Source: Capsulimonas corticalis
Lineage (GTDB): Bacteria; Armatimonadota; Armatimonadia; Armatimonadales; Capsulimonadaceae
NCBI RefSeq assembly: GCF_003574315.2
Contig: NZ_AP025739.1
Coordinates: 6,820,001-6,884,000, forward strand
Length of the DNA: 64,000 nt
Direction of reading: 5' to 3'
In this document: positions 5,094 through 26,404 of the stretch, piece by piece
Layout of the letters: the number at the start of each line of letters is the position of its first letter
How positions within the stretch are numbered: the first letter of the stretch is position 1
Notes under the pieces: generated by a model
Told to the model about the DNA's origin: nothing
Database searches by the model: none
Seen by the model: only the letters and a program-made list of their open reading frames with translations
Translations under genes and position numbers: made by a program

Positions 5094-5642
5094 CTACGCT
5101 TCCGGAGCGATATCCACGTATTGGACACGCAGGTCTTCCATGACCTCTGCGCGGTAAGCGCGGACTTTGACGTGCAATAGCGCCGGACCGGCGTCGCGGA
5201 TGATCGTGGCGACATCCTCGCGCTGCTTTTGCTTGATCTCCGCCGCCGTCGCCCGGGGCATGATCCGGTGGTAGTGCGCGCAGACGGCTCCCTTGGTGCT
5301 GTCGTCGGCGGAGCCGTGCGCGATGAAGATCACCTGCTCCGTTTCATGGGCGAGCAGCAGGAAAAGGAACTGCTGCCGGAAGGCGTCGGCGCGCATGTAC
5401 TCGAACCCGCCGCTCGCCAGCGCCCCCGGACCGCCGGGCGCATAAAGCCGGTCGTAGTTTTCAATTCCGAGATGATGGAAGAGAAATCGGTCGATGCTGG
5501 TTTGCAGACGCCCGTCGGAACATGCGATCACCAGCGTGTGCGGGCGTTCGGCGCTCCAGCGCTCCTCACAAATATAAATGTCTTCTGGAAGGCTCTGGCT
5601 TCCGTCATCCACCATCACGATCTTTTCATCCGCGTTCGTCAC
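5094..5642 (-). CDS. beta-carbonic-anhydrase-like protein, zinc site incomplete
   Basis: A 182-residue cytosolic protein with the beta-carbonic anhydrase core. ACSDGR corresponds to the CxDSR motif, followed by the helix RFLFHHLG and the APGGPGAL loop. A later segment, FIAHGSADDS, corresponds to the HTDCG zinc motif but has Ala where the second zinc cysteine should be. One zinc ligand is therefore missing, and hydration activity is doubtful. The frame is open to 5759. The GTG at 5642 is chosen because a perfect AAAGGAG lies 8 bp before it. It could be a metal-free relative with another role. The gene stands alone between two terminators and promoters. Confidence 0.65.
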   Translation of the reverse strand: MTNADEKIVMVDDGSQSLPEDIYICEERWSAERPHTLVIACSDGRLQTSIDRFLFHHLGIENYDRLYAPGGPGALASGGFEYMRADAFRQQFLFLLLAHETEQVIFIAHGSADDSTKGAVCAHYHRIMPRATAAEIKQKQREDVATIIRDAGPALLHVKVRAYRAEVMEDLRVQYVDIAPEA

Positions 5643-5806
5643 GCTTTTATCTCCTTTATTCGTTATTCGCCGCGCAACATCGTCATAAGGCTCTATTGTG
5701 GGCCGCCAATGTGACGAAATGGTTTCGTCTCGTCGCCGGACATGGCATTCGATTTGCATCCCTGTGTATAATACCGGACAAACGCCTTATCGTGTATGCC
5801 TGGCGA

Positions 5807-5898: not shown

Positions 5899-7587
5899 AT
5901 GCGTCATCGCGTCAGTGTTCTGCTGGAGACGCTGGATCTCTTCGATCCCGAACTCTCAAACCTTCCCCTTCACGGCGCCAACCTCGCGACCGTCGATCTT
6001 TTGCGGCGCATCGCTTCCCACAATCGCGTCGAGGCGCTGGAAGTGTTTCTCGCGCCCGCCGCAATGGCGCGCGCCGATCAGATGGCGCTCGCCGCGCAGC
6101 AGGTCCTGCCGCCCGCCCTGCGCGGCCAGGGGCGCTTGAGCTTCTACCCCATGCACGCTCTGAGGGACATCTGGGCCGACGGCAAGCCGCGCATCCACTG
6201 GTGCATGGACCCTAGCTGGATGGCGCGGGACCGGTATCTGCGCGACCGGTTCGCCGCCGGGCCGACCCCCATCGCCTGCGACACGCACGGCTACGGTCAT
6301 CATACCCTGTGGGGCCCGCTCGCGCGGTTCGCCGCCGCGCCGCCCGTGGCCTTCGACAGCATGCTCAGTTTGAGCACGATGGCTCTCAAAGCGCTCGAAC
6401 GGATCTTTTCTGATTTTCTGAGCGCGCCCGGCGCGCGGCCGCCATGCCGGCTGGATCTGGTTCCGCGCGGCGTCGATCCCGATCTCTTCCATCCCCACGA
6501 TGCGGCGGAAAAAGACGCCGCGCGGCGCGCGCTGGACCTGCCGCCCGGAGCCCGGATCGCGCTGTATGCGGGACGCGTCACGGCGCACGGCAAGGCGGAC
6601 CTGCTTCCCCTGATCCGCGCGTTCGCCGCCGCAGCCGGTCCGGACGATATCCTCCTCATCGCCGGGACCGAATATCCCGCTGGATACGGCGCGAAGCTTT
6701 TGGAATTTGGAAAGTCGCTCGGACTGGGCGAGCGGCTGATCGTCCACCCACGCGTCGAGCCCTCGATGCGCCCCCGTTACTACGGCGCCTCGGACATCTT
6801 CGTCTTCCCCGGCGACACCGTTCAGGAGACGCTGGGCATTACGATGCTGGAAGCCATGGCCTCGGGCCTGCCGTGCATCGTCTCGGAGTGGGACGGAATG
6901 CGCGATCTCATTCGAGACGGCGAGACGGGCTTCACCATCCCAACCTGGTGGATGCCGGGCCTGGACGCGATGGACGCCTTTTCGCCAATTATCCCGCAGT
7001 CGAGCGAGTATCTCCTCACTGCCCAGCGCGTTTGGGTGGACACGGAGCGCTTGTCGTCCGCCCTGGCGACGCTGCTCTCCTCCCCGGAAACACGCGCCGC
7101 GATGGGCGCCGCCGGCCGAGAGTGGATCGAATCCGATTTCGCGCTGCCCAAAATCATGGATCGATGGATCGACTTATGGGACGAATTGGCGGAAACCGCC
7201 GCATCGGAGTCGGATGCGGACCGCATTCTCCGGCGATCCTACGCCGATCGCCTTGGCCATCCCACGCCGTATGACCGCCTGTTCTCGCACTATGCGGCGG
7301 CGACGCTGGACGATCGCCGCGATTCGGTGCGTTTGACGCAGCACGGCCGATCGGTCGCCGCCCGCGCGCAGCCGCTTGAGCTCTACGAAGAAACGCTCTC
7401 GCTGGCGCAGCCGGCGATCCTCGACGCCATCATGGACCGATTGACTCAGACGGGAAACGAGTGGATGAAACTCGGCGCGGCAATCGCGGGAGCGGCCGCC
7501 ATGACCGGCCAGCCCCCGGACAAAGTGCGTTTCCATCTGTGCCTCCTGTTAAAGCGCGATGTTCTTCAATTGCGCCGAGACGAGTAA
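5899..7587 (+). CDS. GT4-family glycosyltransferase
   Basis: A 562-residue retaining glycosyltransferase of the GT-B fold. The C-terminal half carries the glycosyl transferase group 1 region: LYAGRVTAHGKADLL at the start of the nucleotide-sugar domain, YYGASDIFVFP, and the E-x7-E motif (ETLGITMLEAMASGLP). About 110 further residues follow the usual end of the domain. The N-terminal half is less conserved and binds the acceptor. The start at 5899 is preferred over the upstream ATG at 5698 because the family-like sequence begins here and the TTGACG/TACAAT promoter lies between. The ribosome site (GAAGAAA) is weak. No polysaccharide cluster surrounds it, so the acceptor is unknown. Confidence 0.85.
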   Translation: MRHRVSVLLETLDLFDPELSNLPLHGANLATVDLLRRIASHNRVEALEVFLAPAAMARADQMALAAQQVLPPALRGQGRLSFYPMHALRDIWADGKPRIHWCMDPSWMARDRYLRDRFAAGPTPIACDTHGYGHHTLWGPLARFAAAPPVAFDSMLSLSTMALKALERIFSDFLSAPGARPPCRLDLVPRGVDPDLFHPHDAAEKDAARRALDLPPGARIALYAGRVTAHGKADLLPLIRAFAAAAGPDDILLIAGTEYPAGYGAKLLEFGKSLGLGERLIVHPRVEPSMRPRYYGASDIFVFPGDTVQETLGITMLEAMASGLPCIVSEWDGMRDLIRDGETGFTIPTWWMPGLDAMDAFSPIIPQSSEYLLTAQRVWVDTERLSSALATLLSSPETRAAMGAAGREWIESDFALPKIMDRWIDLWDELAETAASESDADRILRRSYADRLGHPTPYDRLFSHYAAATLDDRRDSVRLTQHGRSVAARAQPLELYEETLSLAQPAILDAIMDRLTQTGNEWMKLGAAIAGAAAMTGQPPDKVRFHLCLLLKRDVLQLRRDE

Positions 7588-7659
7588 GACGGCGGGGCGC
7601 TGCAGCCAGCCTATTTTCCGACTGCAGCACAGTTCACACAATTTCGAAGGAGATTCCGG

Positions 7660-8358
7660 TTGAAAACTCAACGCACATTAACCCCCTGGACCATCGCCTC
7701 GTTCTTCGCGGTCCCGCTCACGCTGGTCCTCAGCGCCGCCGCCGCTCAAGCGGCGGACGGCGTCGTCCCCCCGATCTCCGTTCAGGTGGGCGTCGGCTAC
7801 CTGACCGATAGCTCCGCCCGCAATGCGGCGGGCGACGCGGGCCTGCACGCTGGTCTGTCCTACGGCCTTCCCAACAAGAGCCTGCTGTCCACGCTGCACG
7901 GCAAGCCGTCGATCGATGTGGATTACAACCACACCGGCGGCCATGGCGGCCGCGTCGATGTCCTGGGCTTTAGCTACACCGAGCGCATCTCGGTCGGCAA
8001 CGCTGTGACCGACGTCGTCACCAGCGGCGCCCGCCCGTATGTGGGCCTGGGTATCGGCGCATTCCGCACGGATGTCAAGCGCCGCACCACCACCACGACA
8101 ACCACGAGTGACAGTGGTAACCCCGGCAGCGGCAACCCGGGAACCATCCAGACCACCAGCGGCACGCCCGGCGTCAACTCGCAACTGACCACCACCACGA
8201 CTTCGTCGCAGTCGGCGAACGGCTGGAGCCTGGGCGGCAAGATCCTCGCCGGCGTCGATTTCGGCAAGACGTACATTGAGGCGTCGTACCAGATCGGCGG
8301 ATCCAAGCTCGGCGTCCGCTCCGACACCGCGAACCTCTCGGTCGGCGTCCACTTCTAA
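7660..8358 (+). CDS. secreted outer-membrane beta-barrel-like protein
   Basis: A 232-residue exported protein that starts at TTG with AAGGAG 8 bp upstream. The signal peptide is basic, then hydrophobic (ASFFAVPLTLVLSAAAA) and ends AQAADG. The mature part alternates short amphipathic beta-strand-like segments (SVQVGVGYL, HAGLSYGL, PYVGLGIGAF, TYIEASYQIGG) and ends in LSVGVHF, the aromatic C-terminal strand typical of outer-membrane barrels. A low-complexity Thr/Ser/Gly loop of about 60 residues sits between two strands, presumably facing outwards. No specific family is recognised. A strong terminator follows. Confidence 0.6.
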   Translation: MKTQRTLTPWTIASFFAVPLTLVLSAAAAQAADGVVPPISVQVGVGYLTDSSARNAAGDAGLHAGLSYGLPNKSLLSTLHGKPSIDVDYNHTGGHGGRVDVLGFSYTERISVGNAVTDVVTSGARPYVGLGIGAFRTDVKRRTTTTTTTSDSGNPGSGNPGTIQTTSGTPGVNSQLTTTTTSSQSANGWSLGGKILAGVDFGKTYIEASYQIGGSKLGVRSDTANLSVGVHF

Positions 8359-21613: not shown

Positions 21614-22360
21614 TTACGCGGCGGGCGGGTTCTCCGGCTCAGGAGCCGGCGCGGGCGTCGCCGCCGGCGCAGCCGCTTCCGGGGCGGGCGCGGGCGTTAC
21701 GACCGGAGCGGGCGCGGCGACTGGCGCCGTATTCGCTGCGGGCGCCGCAGGACGCGGAGCGGCGGGCTTCGGCGCGGCGGGGGCCTTGGGAGCTCCCGGC
21801 GCGGCGGGCTTGGGTCCACCCGCCTTCAGCGGGCTCAGGATCATGGTCATCATTCGGCCTTCCATCGACGGCGGCTTCTCCACCTGACCGACTTCGGAGA
21901 CCATATTGGTGACTTTGTCCATCTGCTGGCGGCCAAACTCTGGGTGCGTGATCTGGCGTCCCTTGAACCGGATCGTCACCTTGACTTTGTCGCCGTCCTC
22001 CAGGAACTTGATGGCGCTGCGAACTTTGACATTGAAGTCATGATCCTCGATGTTCGGAAACATCTGGATGCCCTTCAGTTCGCTTTGCTTGTGCTTCTTG
22101 GCGGATTCTTTTTCTTTTTTGGCCTGCTCGTACTTGAACTTGCCATAGTCCATGATCTTGCAGACCGGCGGCTGCGCCTGAGGCGCGACTTCGATCAAGT
22201 CGATCCCGCGCTCCCGTGCGATCGCCAGGGCTTCGCGGGGCGTCATGATGCCCAGCTGACCGCCATCATCATCGATGACGCGGATCTCCCGCGCTCGAAT
22301 CCGCTCGTTCATGTTTACCCGCGGCTCACGCGGGTCTCTGCGAAAATCCCGACTGTTTAT
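21614..22360 (-). CDS. infC: translation initiation factor IF-3, probable AUA start codon
   Basis: IF-3 prevents 50S joining and proofreads start codons. The conserved core runs from NERIRAREIRVI through KIMDYGKFKYEQAKK to the C-terminal domain (GDKVKVTIRFKGRQITHPE). About 65 Pro/Ala-rich residues follow, ending PEPENPPAA, an unusual tail. The first ATG is at 22312, but it has no ribosome site. The frame stays open upstream and encodes RDFRRDPREPRVN, a segment commonly found before this point in IF-3. A perfect GGAGG (22367-22371) lies 6 bp before ATA at 22358-22360, the only suitable codon. Non-canonical infC starts are a known autoregulation device. With AUA the protein is 248 residues. Confidence 0.9.
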   Translation of the reverse strand: MNSRDFRRDPREPRVNMNERIRAREIRVIDDDGGQLGIMTPREALAIARERGIDLIEVAPQAQPPVCKIMDYGKFKYEQAKKEKESAKKHKQSELKGIQMFPNIEDHDFNVKVRSAIKFLEDGDKVKVTIRFKGRQITHPEFGRQQMDKVTNMVSEVGQVEKPPSMEGRMMTMILSPLKAGGPKPAAPGAPKAPAAPKPAAPRPAAPAANTAPVAAPAPVVTPAPAPEAAAPAATPAPAPEPENPPAA

Positions 22361-22454: not shown

Positions 22455-22483
22455 AGTATAGCTTATTCCACGATAGGAGTCAA
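22455..22483 (-). promoter_or_regulatory. infC: near-consensus promoter of the infC operon
   Basis: On the minus strand TTGACT (22483-22478), a 17-bp spacer and TATACT (22460-22455). Transcription from about 22448 gives a leader of roughly 88 nt to the AUA start, holding an ACTGGC...GCCAGT stem and an AT-rich stretch. Confidence 0.85.
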
Positions 22484-22533
22484 GAGAAGCAAACAATGAG
22501 TCGGCTATATTTCGTGAAGTTTTTCCACTCACA

Positions 22534-22562
22534 TTAAAAATATTCCTAAAAACGGGTATATT
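22534..22562 (+). promoter_or_regulatory. promoter of the AbiE-like pair
   Basis: TTAAAA (22534-22539), a 17-bp spacer and TATATT (22557-22562). Transcription near 22569 would leave only about 8 nt before the ATG at 22577. The -35 box is poor. Confidence 0.5.
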
Positions 22563-22576
22563 CTTAATTGAGAAAT

Positions 22577-23710
22577 ATGAACAAATCAGGAATATCAAGA
22601 GATGTACCGCTGACAGAGCATCAAATGCTGGCGTCTTTATTCAACGGACAAGTACGTTTTCCCGCCTTGGATGTTCGCGCGCGCCTCGCCCCATTTCGAT
22701 CGCCGGCCCCGAAGACATCGATTACCGGCGCTGACGCGATCGTCGATGTCACGTGGGGCGCCAAAACGTACACGTTCGTCGTCGAATGCAAGACACAATC
22801 TACGCCCAAAATCATCGATGCGGCTATTGGACAGGCAACGCGATATTCCCAGGATATGGGCCTGCTCCCCATGATTTTTACGCCCTATCTCAGTCGAGAG
22901 GCGCTGGAGCGCTTAGAGGCGGCTGGGATAAGCGGCGTCGACCTCTCCGGCAACGGTATTATTCACGTCCCAGGCGAAATATTTATCTATCAAAGCGGCG
23001 CGCCAAATCGATACCCGTCTCGCCGCCAGGGACCAAATCCGTATCGCGGCGCATCCTCTCTCGTCGCCCGGACATTGGCGATACAGACGGAATTCGGCTC
23101 CTCCCGCGCTATTGAGAAGTTCATCGCGGAACGCGGAGGCATGATTACCCAGGGCGCCATTTCCAAAGCGCTCAATGAGCTTGAAGACGATTTGGTTATT
23201 CTGCGCGAACAACGCGCCATCCGAGTCCTGCAATATGATGTGCTACTCGACGCGCTCGTCCGCCATTTTGAACGCCCCGATCCTCACGAGGCGCGCAGCT
23301 GTAAAGTCAGCGGATCCCCCGGCGAAATCCAAAAGATTATCGTGGATCAGGCCATCAAGCAAAGTGAGAAAGTCATTGTGACCGGTCTGGGATCCGCCAG
23401 TCACTACACGGCAATGGCGCAGTCTCCGCCAATCCCAATTTATTGCCGTCGCCTAGATTTGCTGGACGGTTACGCCGACTTCGAGAGCAGATTCCCCAAT
23501 GTCGTGATTAAGCGTATGGCCGATCCTGGTGTTTATTACGATGCTCACATGGAAGGCGGCCTGCCATGGGCGTCCCCCGTTCAAACTTATCTTGAGCTGA
23601 TGAACGGCGGAGCTAGAGATCGCGAGATGGCGGATAATGTTCGCCGCTTTTTCTCCATGGAGATTGGCAAAAAGCAATCCATTTCCGATGAGACCAACAA
23701 CAATGCGTGA
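22577..23710 (+). CDS. AbiEi-family antitoxin-like protein with nuclease-fold N-terminus
   Basis: A 377-residue protein. Residues about 45-90 look like a PD-(D/E)xK core: DAIVDVTWGAKTYTFVVECK has the Asp and the E-x-K on adjacent strands, followed by a helix AAIGQATRYS. Residues about 150-215 form a winged helix (GMITQGAISKALNELEDDLV). The C-terminal part (VIVTGLGSASHYTAMAQSPP, IPIYCRRLDLL) resembles AbiEi regulators. In type IV toxin-antitoxin pairs AbiEi represses the operon and counters an AbiEii nucleotidyltransferase, and such a gene follows here with an 8-bp overlap. Some known AbiEi families carry an E-x-K region too. Whether the nuclease motif is catalytic is open. GC is lower than its neighbours. 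Confidence 0.65.
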   Translation: MNKSGISRDVPLTEHQMLASLFNGQVRFPALDVRARLAPFRSPAPKTSITGADAIVDVTWGAKTYTFVVECKTQSTPKIIDAAIGQATRYSQDMGLLPMIFTPYLSREALERLEAAGISGVDLSGNGIIHVPGEIFIYQSGAPNRYPSRRQGPNPYRGASSLVARTLAIQTEFGSSRAIEKFIAERGGMITQGAISKALNELEDDLVILREQRAIRVLQYDVLLDALVRHFERPDPHEARSCKVSGSPGEIQKIIVDQAIKQSEKVIVTGLGSASHYTAMAQSPPIPIYCRRLDLLDGYADFESRFPNVVIKRMADPGVYYDAHMEGGLPWASPVQTYLELMNGGARDREMADNVRRFFSMEIGKKQSISDETNNNA

Positions 23711-24599
23711 ACCACAAAACGAGATGATGGGAGCGCTGCTCGACATCTATTACGAATTACGAGAGACTCAGATCCGTCCCATCATCATCGGCGGTTTGGG
23801 AATCTATCTCAGAGCGCGAGATGTCTTCGAACGAGAAGTGACAACTCTCACTCCTCTCGCTCCCGCACGCGCGACTCAGGACATTGATATGGTTCTGCGT
23901 CCGGAAACAATCCTCAGGCCGGAATTAAGGTCCAGCTTCCAGCACATGCTGGCCACACTAAAGTTCCGCGTGATCAAAACGCGCGCCTACTGGCAATATA
24001 AAAGACTCCACTACTACCACGAGCAAAAACTAGATCTGCATACCTGGGCGCCGACAGAAGAATCGCAAAGCTCTTACCAGATCGTTAATGAAAAGCTTAT
24101 CTCATTGGATCCCAACGCTATGCTGGACGCGCACATTGCCAATGAAGCGATTGGGGCGAACGAATTCGCAACGGCCATTCGCTGCTCTGGCTACCGAAGC
24201 GAGGGGGCATTCTACGAATGCGCCGCTTTTGTCGCCCACCCGTTCACTCTCGCTGTTATGAAATTACTCGCCTACCGCGATTTTGCGCACAAGACCGCCA
24301 CTGCGGAATTATCAGCCGAAGAAGCGCGAACCAATCTGCAATTCGTCCAAAAGCATGCTCTTGACATCTACATACTTCTTTCGACGATTACAGAAGAGGA
24401 ATGGGAGCACGCGAAAGAACTGGCGGCCCATTATAGCAATATATCCATATTTCACAACGCAAAGACCGTTGTGCGAGAAGCATTTTCAGAACTTGATGCG
24501 CCGGGAATGGTCCAAATGCGCACCAGTCTAGACGCCACTCCTGAGATGCAGTTTGAAGCTGCTCCATCTCTACTGAACGAACTTTTTGGCGTTCGATAA
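23703..24599 (+). CDS. AbiEii-like nucleotidyltransferase toxin candidate
   Basis: A 298-residue protein with the AbiEii/MNT nucleotidyltransferase core. IIIGGLGIYLRAR gives the G-G motif and ATQDIDMVL supplies the paired acidic residues (D-x-D). A third acidic position is probably KLDLHTWAP, about 75 residues later. The C-terminal helical region (HPFTLAVMKLLAYRDF) fits the toxin family, where a Lys follows the substrate site. AbiEii/MenT toxins block growth by adding nucleotides to tRNA 3' ends. The ATG at 23703 overlaps the AbiEi-like stop by 8 bases; ATG at 23688 is an alternative. It could also be a housekeeping DUF6036-type protein. Confidence 0.65.
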   Translation: MREPQNEMMGALLDIYYELRETQIRPIIIGGLGIYLRARDVFEREVTTLTPLAPARATQDIDMVLRPETILRPELRSSFQHMLATLKFRVIKTRAYWQYKRLHYYHEQKLDLHTWAPTEESQSSYQIVNEKLISLDPNAMLDAHIANEAIGANEFATAIRCSGYRSEGAFYECAAFVAHPFTLAVMKLLAYRDFAHKTATAELSAEEARTNLQFVQKHALDIYILLSTITEEEWEHAKELAAHYSNISIFHNAKTVVREAFSELDAPGMVQMRTSLDATPEMQFEAAPSLLNELFGVR

Positions 24600-24601
24600 A
24601 T

Positions 24602-24638
24602 AGGGCGCACCTGCATGGGTCCCATGCAGGCGCGCCCT
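24602..24638 (-). terminator. hairpin terminator at the end of thrS
   Basis: An 18-bp stem (AGGGCGCACCTGCATGGG against CCCATGCAGGCGCGCCCT) with one position that is a G-T pair only on the minus strand is followed there by ATTTAT. It lies between convergent genes and may serve both. Confidence 0.75.
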
Positions 24639-24649
24639 GCTCAAAGAGT

Positions 24650-26404
24650 TTACGCCGTTTCTTCCACCAGCCGCGCAATGAAGTCGTCGAGCGGGATCGC
24701 GCCCAGGTCCGTGCCGCCGTGCAGGCGCACGGAGACGGTTCCGGCGGCGGCGTCGCGGTCGCCGACGACGAGCATGTACGGGATCTTCTGGACTTCGGAT
24801 TCGGCGACTTTCTTGCCGACCTTTTCGTTGCGCGCGTCGAGTTCGACGCGGAAACCCTTGGCTTTGAGCTTATCGACAACAGACTGGCCGTACTCTTTGT
24901 GGCGATCGACGATCGGCAGCACGACGGCCTGGACCGGCGCAAGCCACGTCGGGAAGACGCCGGCGTAGTGCTCGATCAGGAAGGCCACCATGCGCTCCAT
25001 CGTGCTGATGATGCCGCGATGGATCATGACCGGCTGGTGCTTGTGACCGTCCTCGCCCGTGTAGTCCAATCCGAACTGCTTGGGAAGGTGGCGGTCGACT
25101 TGCACCGTCGAGACCGTTTCTTCCTTGCCGAGCATGTTGCGCAGCTGGATGTCGATCTTCGGGCCGTAGAAGGCCGCCTCGCCCGCCGCTTCGTAGTACG
25201 GCAGGCCGAGGTCTTTGAAGACGTCGCGCAGCTCGCCCTCGGCGCGCTCCCACAGCTCGGGGTTATCGACATACTTCTCTTTGTCGTTTGGATCGTGCAG
25301 GCTCAGGCGATAGGTGTAATCCGTGATGCCCAGCTTGCGATACGCCGCCTCGACCATCAAAATACAGCCCTTGACCTCTTCGACCACTTGATCCTCGCGG
25401 CAGAAGATATGGGCGTCGTTGAGCGTCATGGCGCGAACGCGGGAAAGACCGCTGAGTTGTCCGGACTTCTCATATCGATACATCGTCCCGAGCTCCGCCA
25501 GGCGCACCGGCAGGTCCCGGTACGAATGCGGATCGTTCTGATAGATCATGATGTGGTGCGGGCAGTTCATCGGACGAAGCACGAACTCTTCGTTCTCGAT
25601 CTTCATGACCGGGAACATGCCGTCCTGATAGTGCTCCCAGTGCCCGGAGATCTTGTACAGATCGACCTTCGCCATCTGGGGCGTGTAGACGTGGCTGTAC
25701 CCCGAGGCCAACTCGACATCCACGATATGGCGCTCCAGCACGCGACGGATCGTGGCGCCCTTCGGCAGCCACAGCGGCAGGCCAGGTCCGATCGTTCCGT
25801 TGTTCGCGAACAGGCCGAGCTGCTTGCCCAGGACTTTGTGGTCGCGCCGCTTCGCCTCTTCGAGGCGAGCCAGATGCGCGTCCATCTCCTCCTGCGTGTC
25901 AAAAAGATAGCCGTAGATGCGCTGGAGCTGGTCGCGCTTCTCATCGCCGCGCCAATAGGCGCCGGCGACCGAAGCGAGCTTGAAGACGCCGATCTTGCCG
26001 GTGCTCTCGACATGCGGTCCGCGGCAGAGGTCCGTGAACGGTCCCTGCGTGTAGAACGAGATCGTCTCGCCCTCCGGAAGATCGTGGATCAGCTCCGCCT
26101 TAAACGGCTGGCCGCGCTCCTCTTCCCAGGCAATCGCCTCCTCGCGGGGCTTCTCACTGCGCACGAGCGGGAAGTTATCACGCTTGATCCGCTTCATCCG
26201 CGACGCGACTTCCACAAGATCCTCGGGCGTCAGCGTACGGGGCAGATCGAAATCGTAATAGAAGCCGTCCTCGATTGGCGGGCCGATCGCGAGCTTCGCA
26301 GTCGGAAACATCTCCACGACCGCCTGGGCCAGGACATGCGCGGCGGTGTGGCGCTGCTTCCAGATCTCATCATACTGCTCAGCGGGTTGCGAATTGTCAG
26401 CCAC
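24650..26404 (-). CDS. thrS: threonyl-tRNA synthetase without TGS domain
   Basis: A 584-residue class II synthetase charging tRNA-Thr. It begins directly with the editing domain (RHTAAHVLAQAVVEMFPTAK, GPPIEDGFYYDFD, and the C-x3-H motif CRGPHVES). The usual N-terminal TGS domain of about 60 residues is missing, as in some other bacterial ThrS. Motif 1 lies near LWLPKGATIRRVLERHI. Motif 2 carries zinc ligands in RPMNCPHHIMIY and HIFCRE. Motif 3 is HRGIISTMERMVAFLIEHY. The anticodon-binding domain ends the protein. It is monocistronic, with a terminator after it. Confidence 0.95.
   Translation of the reverse strand: MADNSQPAEQYDEIWKQRHTAAHVLAQAVVEMFPTAKLAIGPPIEDGFYYDFDLPRTLTPEDLVEVASRMKRIKRDNFPLVRSEKPREEAIAWEEERGQPFKAELIHDLPEGETISFYTQGPFTDLCRGPHVESTGKIGVFKLASVAGAYWRGDEKRDQLQRIYGYLFDTQEEMDAHLARLEEAKRRDHKVLGKQLGLFANNGTIGPGLPLWLPKGATIRRVLERHIVDVELASGYSHVYTPQMAKVDLYKISGHWEHYQDGMFPVMKIENEEFVLRPMNCPHHIMIYQNDPHSYRDLPVRLAELGTMYRYEKSGQLSGLSRVRAMTLNDAHIFCREDQVVEEVKGCILMVEAAYRKLGITDYTYRLSLHDPNDKEKYVDNPELWERAEGELRDVFKDLGLPYYEAAGEAAFYGPKIDIQLRNMLGKEETVSTVQVDRHLPKQFGLDYTGEDGHKHQPVMIHRGIISTMERMVAFLIEHYAGVFPTWLAPVQAVVLPIVDRHKEYGQSVVDKLKAKGFRVELDARNEKVGKKVAESEVQKIPYMLVVGDRDAAAGTVSVRLHGGTDLGAIPLDDFIARLVEETA

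Follow-up and report, generated by a model that had tools for sequence, protein, structure and literature searches.

Between infC and thrS of Capsulimonas corticalis lie two genes that very probably form a toxin-antitoxin pair with a nucleotidyltransferase (NTase) toxin, and the antitoxin just as probably begins with a domain of the PD-(D/E)XK fold, nearest to NucS/EndoMS and Mrr, as judged from the predicted structure, from motif conservation and from several individually weak profile matches. The gene pair is already known (2014); the nuclease-like N-terminal domain of the antitoxin is the part that the literature searched does not describe. We tentatively favour the reading in which the module is a toxin-antitoxin system whose antitoxin carries a working nuclease domain as an accessory and not as the main effector. 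Positions are those of the window, by which we mean the whole stretch of 64,000 nucleotides analysed (contig NZ_AP025739.1, positions 6,820,001 to 6,884,000); the host genome consists of one contig of 7.65 Mb.

Both genes (Table 1) are on the opposite strand to their neighbours infC (21614-22312, -) and thrS (24650-26404, -), overlap by 8 bp and have a GC content of 54.6% (gene 1, the antitoxin) and 50.6% (gene 2, the toxin), the pair reaching 52% against 62-63% in the flanks. Gene 1 could alternatively begin with the TTG at 22568. The genes thrS, infC, rpmI, rplT and pheS/pheT, named from their translations, follow one another on the minus strand, which is the usual order for such housekeeping genes. 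The hairpin between gene 2 and the convergent thrS is likely to serve as a two-way terminator for both.

Table 1. Features of the toxin-antitoxin locus, in window positions
Feature	Position	Strand	Basis
Candidate infC promoter, TTGACT-17-TATACT	22455..22483	-	Consensus scan
Candidate promoter of the pair, TTAAAA-17-TATATT	22534..22562	+	Consensus scan only, near chance rate
Candidate operator, half-sites ATATTCCT / AGGAATAT at 22540-22547 and 22588-22595	22540..22595	.	Inverted-repeat search; short, may be chance
Gene 1, antitoxin, COG4861/AbiEi_2-like, 377 aa, three domains	22577..23710	+	Open reading frame; PF09952 in homologues; AF2
N-terminal PD-(D/E)XK-like domain, residues ~11-145	22607..23011	+	Secondary structure of the model; partial NucS/Mrr/Hjc matches; Foldseek
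E14, helix-1 Glu of the putative active site	22616..22618	+	89% in 28 near homologues
D53, putative catalytic Asp, start of strand 2	22733..22735	+	96% in near homologues; 50/56 letters overall
E70-C71-K72, ExK motif, strand 3	22784..22792	+	E 93%, K 89% in near homologues
S119-GVDLSGNG-127, most conserved motif of the N-terminal domain	22931..22957	+	Conservation in near homologues
Winged helix-turn-helix, residues ~150-220	23024..23236	+	HTH matches in homologues; PDB profile matches
AbiEi-type C-terminal (antitoxicity) domain, NTase-like fold, residues ~232-363	23270..23665	+	PF09952 in homologues; Foldseek
Gene 2, NTase toxin, AbiEii/COG4849-like, 298 aa	23703..24599	+	PF08843 in homologues; AF2; Foldseek; MenT1 profile
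T58-x-D60-x-D62, metal-binding DxD and Thr equivalent to the MenT autophosphorylation site	23874..23888	+	Conservation
K187, catalytic Lys of DUF1814 NTases	24261..24263	+	Invariant
D221, motif IV Asp	24363..24365	+	Invariant
Hairpin, 18-nt arms, between gene 2 and convergent thrS	24602..24638	.	Inverted-repeat search

The place taken by the pair differs from relative to relative. Homology between the window and a congener (G001) spans infC and its upstream region and ends at 22485, just beyond the -35 box of the candidate infC promoter; there, an unrelated gene of 678 aa (L100:1221-3257, -) fills the slot upstream of infC, and its product, read from the sequence, is presumably an unusual fusion of a DnaK/Hsp70 N-terminus with a TIR-like C-terminus, which could itself be a defence gene. 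The spacing between thrS and infC is ~255 bp in one relative (G002) and ~167 bp in another (G004). In a further member of the family (G006), the gap is occupied by two tandem genes (L232:4563-5144 and 5148-5771, +) which, from a reading of their products, we take to be of the Uma2 type (DUF820), and the thrS-infC gap therefore appears as a recurrent accessory slot. The short gaps in the first two relatives, the DnaK-TIR gene and the Uma2-type genes together indicate that the pair occupies a replaceable slot. To judge from these sequence comparisons, the slot lies directly upstream of the likely infC promoter and is variable among relatives.

Single-sequence searches of Pfam, NCBIfam, PADLOC and the PDB with either window protein gave no significant match, a scan of genome contigs with the lone window sequence found no relative, and gene 2 alone as query found no plasmid relatives. 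One phmmer match in the PDB, to the photosystem I protein PsaD, was rejected as spurious; no single stretch of it was significant alone. The window proteins stay below the cut-offs of Pfam, NCBIfam and PADLOC, and their families were assigned through homologues, 32 of which came from genome contigs (Planctomycetota, Verrucomicrobiota, Melainabacteria, Acidobacteriota and others) and more from the host phylum and from plasmids. AbiEi_2 (PF09952) matches 32 of the 52 gene-1 homologues (best 1.1e-13) and AbiEii (PF08843) matches 8 of the 12 gene-2 homologues; PF09952 corresponds to COG4861 (PMC7251935), and Dy et al. 2014 (PMC3985639) described two AbiE-like pairings, of which COG4861-COG4849 is one. 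In 54 of 59 distinct gene-1 homologues the next gene downstream codes for an NTase (51 found automatically and three with an over-long start call), most homologous pairs overlap by a few bases, and the plasmid relatives are annotated as AbiEi-family antitoxin and AbiEii toxin. Among the five homologues with no NTase gene downstream, one lies at the end of its contig, and another has a HEPN-like gene in that place.

Variants of the arrangement were also seen. In one homologue (L027:2681-4956, +), the C-terminus of the antitoxin runs on into a minimal MNT-type nucleotidyltransferase, and the next gene is HEPN-like, which looks like a replacement of the toxin part by a HEPN/MNT module. The own genome of C. 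corticalis contains a second, distant pair near 2.242 Mb of its contig (L103:6169-7272 and 7266-8105, +), in which the antitoxin is intact and one in-frame TAG splits the toxin, as well as two more AbiEii genes of the ordinary PF08843 type (L020 and L021; C1:7370077-7370748 and 1893920-1894660).

For gene 2, the AF2 model (pLDDT 93.6) has an NTase fold, with ANT(2'')-Ia, MenT3/Rv1045 and CD-NTases among its Foldseek neighbours, and the best PDB profile match is MenT1 (E 6.6e-5). In the family alignment G30, D60, D62, K187 and D221 are invariant, the G30-G31 motif is invariant or nearly so, the catalytic residues are intact in 41 of 41 aligned partners, and all 41 toxins have Thr or Ser at position 58, just before the DxD. 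Binding of the antitoxin leads MenT1 and MenT3 to autophosphorylate the equivalent residue; the authors of that study report a phosphorylatable Ser/Thr as strictly conserved in both COG families of DUF1814 toxins and name the COG4861 antitoxins as still open (PMC11375011). By analogy, the autophosphorylation mechanism may be transferable to gene 2. As in AbiE and MenAT, the toxin would add nucleotides to tRNA acceptor ends and so stop translation.

The product of gene 1 was modelled with AF2 from 43 sequences, the rows of the plasmid database having been left out of the structure jobs (pLDDT 91.2, pTM 0.85). For the winged helix, the homologues match HTH families of the MarR, IclR and Crp types, and the PDB profile matches are MarR, Lrs14 and Fur regulators. 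The match to PF09952 is confined to the C-terminal domain (in relatives, residues ~204-372), and the ~145 residues before the winged helix match no Pfam family above its cut-off. Foldseek neighbours of the whole model include MenT1, 8AN4, 5KQJ and 4FO1, and the latter two are also DALI neighbours of the AbiEi of Streptococcus agalactiae (PMC7319586); the matches to MenT1, 5KQJ and 4FO1 presumably fall on the C-terminal domain. Comparison of this domain with the toxin by hhalign gave a score within that of shuffles, so that the NTase-like fold of the antitoxin domain is visible only by structure. From what is known of AbiE and MenAT, the winged helix would repress the operon, and the C-terminal domain would neutralise the toxin, probably by inducing autophosphorylation of T58. 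A first-pass annotation of this DNA had already described two overlapping genes of lower GC content between infC and thrS, paired them as AbiEi and AbiEii, read gene 2 as an NTase with the GG...DxD pattern of AbiEii/MenT toxins and given gene 1 a winged helix and an AbiEi-like C-terminus, and the gene calls, family matches, conserved residues and models bear all of this out.

In the model, the N-terminal domain consists of a helix (residues 14-22), three strands (31-37, 54-60 and 63-71), a helix (77-94), a strand (97-102), a helix (107-115) and a strand (119-122), i.e. it has the element order of the PD-(D/E)XK core (alpha-beta-beta-beta-alpha-beta), where D53 marks the start of strand 2 and E70-C-K72 the end of strand 3; most of these blocks have a pLDDT above 85, except residues 31-50. 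Foldseek of gene 1 returned the type IIS restriction enzyme PaqCI, EndoMS and phage models named 'restriction endonuclease' at probabilities of 0.87-1.00, in a run on the multi-domain model which gave poor superpositions and no domain coordinates. The best PDB match to the domain profile, individually weak, is the endonuclease NucS (E 0.094), and this alignment is in register: ELK pairs with EvK, QMKRY pairs with the QxxxY motif of the helix, and the next strand is aligned as well. Three homologues are hit by the NucS model of NCBIfam (best E 7.7e-4), and Hjc, NucS_C, Mrr_cat and HSDR_N give weak matches to single family members, among them that of Hjc to the window protein (E 0.066). With hhalign, the domain scored above 60 of 60 column shuffles against both UPF0102 and Mrr, yet at an absolute probability of only 5-6%; against a PIN control it did not score above column shuffles.

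Conservation points to the same site. Among 28 near homologues (the window protein itself together with relatives that have at least 27% identity to it, about 27-39%), E14, D53, E70 and K72 are kept at 89-96%, against 46% for the median position, and rank 26th, 11th, 18th and 24th among the 135 positions of the domain; Q86 is kept in 75%. The Asp...ExK pattern proposed in the first-pass annotation is real, with one correction: the aspartate is D53, and not D57 of the 'VDVTW' stretch, which ranks 91st. The PD-(D/E)XK-like region, likewise proposed there, is supported by the predicted fold and the alignment. The two observations which that annotation had named as speaking against it were not made, the ExK residues being far from freely variable (Table 1) and the N-terminus being no ordinary AbiEi N-terminus, as canonical AbiEi comprises a winged helix and a C-terminal domain only. 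Taken together, sequence and model suggest that the domain is probably an active nuclease in this protein, although we hold this with less assurance than the fold itself.

The most conserved feature of the domain is a different one. S119, G120, D122, L123, G125 and N126 are invariant in the 28 near homologues, D122 even in 58 of 58 letters overall, and this S119-GVDLxGN motif, which matches no recognised motif, surpasses the putative active site in conservation and lies outside the canonical one. That the invariant motif is GVDLxGN and not ExK would suit an ordinary pair in which the N-terminal domain is a non-cutting PD-(D/E)XK relic, a platform for DNA binding, dimerisation or toxin docking around this motif, and in which D-ExK persists for structure or for metal or ligand binding; folds of this type are often reused as non-catalytic modules. 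We consider such a relic a possible but rather doubtful explanation: four rightly placed residues are kept at 89-96% among relatives of about 27-39% identity to the window protein, although relics usually lose such residues faster, and the site is intact in most of the wider set of homologues as well.

In this wider set, the D/[ED]/K site is intact in 40 of 54 homologues and altered in 14; K-to-R and E-to-Q were counted as altered, although some of these changes could leave the site functional or reflect misalignment. The tree, from which the three site columns had been excluded, shows 13 changes between intact and altered, at least nine of which are forced by supported branches; they are mostly at the tips and scatter like shuffled labels. 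Several antitoxins with an altered site (L005, L061, L062, L071 and others) keep a partner with an intact toxin site, which likewise agrees with a relic. As the nuclease site has repeatedly been lost while the toxin stayed intact, it looks accessory to the toxin-antitoxin function; from the alignments and the tree, most lineages retain the nuclease-like site, yet it is dispensable to the toxin-antitoxin partnership.

These counts also bear on the proposal of the first-pass annotation that the antitoxin is at the same time an effector, which would make this a phage-defence locus. In its fuller form, the nuclease would be an anti-phage effector that cuts the DNA or RNA of the phage, and the NTase would either modify the nuclease or serve as a back-up killer. 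The conservation of the nuclease site would fit, as would the DnaK-TIR gene in the same slot of the congener and the defence genes that adjoin some homologues, whose flanks match Gabija GajB, type IIG restriction and DRT-type models in a PADLOC scan. On a Delftia plasmid (NZ_CP065697.1, L010), an annotated restriction endonuclease gene comes after the pair, with the Qat anti-phage gene qatA two genes further along. However, a nuclease site altered in 14 of 54 homologues beside a toxin site altered in none of 41 is the reverse of what a main effector predicts. Random host genes matched 87 PADLOC families against 200, counts that are inflated by redundant models and with a control from one genome; because random host genes also match many PADLOC models, a defence enrichment near the pair is not established. 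Furthermore, neither window protein matches a PADLOC model, while gene-2 homologues match AbiEii. Matches of relatives to the PADLOC model PDC-M05A were rejected as a sign of membership, since that module is an NTase/HEPN pair and the match probably arises through the winged helix. On this evidence we regard the proposal of an effector antitoxin, with two effectors in one locus, as improbable.

In the reading that we favour, the N-terminal domain would be a metal-dependent nuclease of the NucS/Mrr type with E14, D53, E70 and K72 as its site. It may engage and cut invading or damaged DNA and so set the toxin free, acting as an accessory sensor or trigger and not as the killing effector; we regard this role as plausible, though less likely than not. 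Still less likely, we think, is the generalisation that the COG4861 class as a whole consists of nuclease-antitoxins which would repress their operon, neutralise an NTase toxin and cut nucleic acid via a NucS/Mrr-like domain, the recognition and cutting of foreign DNA freeing a tRNA-modifying toxin. COG4861-COG4849 pairs are widespread, and one is found in Mycobacterium tuberculosis. If the N-terminal third is a working nuclease, a family annotated as regulators would be DNA-processing enzymes, and the question of the trigger would be directly testable with point mutants of D53, E70 and K72. If the domain is instead a relic, the layout of three domains still corrects an annotation now limited to the C-terminal domain.

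Among known systems, the COG4861-COG4849 pairs (PMC3985639), including Rv0837c-Rv0836c (PMC3968373), have the same gene order and consist, as here, of a winged-helix regulator and a DUF1814 NTase, and homologues of the window genes match PF09952 and PF08843. The accessible papers treat the COG4861 member only as a putative transcriptional regulator and make no mention of an N-terminal PD-(D/E)XK-like domain; no description of a nuclease-like domain in COG4861 antitoxins was found in the literature searched, which omits most subscription journals. The AbiE system of S. agalactiae (AbiEi, COG5340, with AbiEii) is likewise bicistronic, with a winged helix and an NTase toxin, and the C-terminal domain of its antitoxin shares the structural neighbours 5KQJ and 4FO1 with gene 1; that antitoxin, however, is a two-domain protein of 23 kDa, while gene 1 has an extra domain of ~145 residues before the winged helix. 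With the toxins of MenAT1 and MenAT3 (PMC11375011), gene 2 has in common the DxD, the catalytic Lys, the motif IV Asp and the Ser/Thr before the DxD, MenT1 being its best profile match and MenT3 a fold match. The MenAT antitoxins differ from gene 1, MenA1 lacking both the winged helix and the antitoxicity domain at the C-terminus and MenA3 being homologous to AbiEi. Finally, NucS/EndoMS and Mrr-type nucleases resemble the N-terminal domain in the order of the structural elements and in having D...ExK and QxxxY in register, but sequence similarity to them is at the limit of detection, and in gene 1 a winged helix and an antitoxin domain follow in the same protein.
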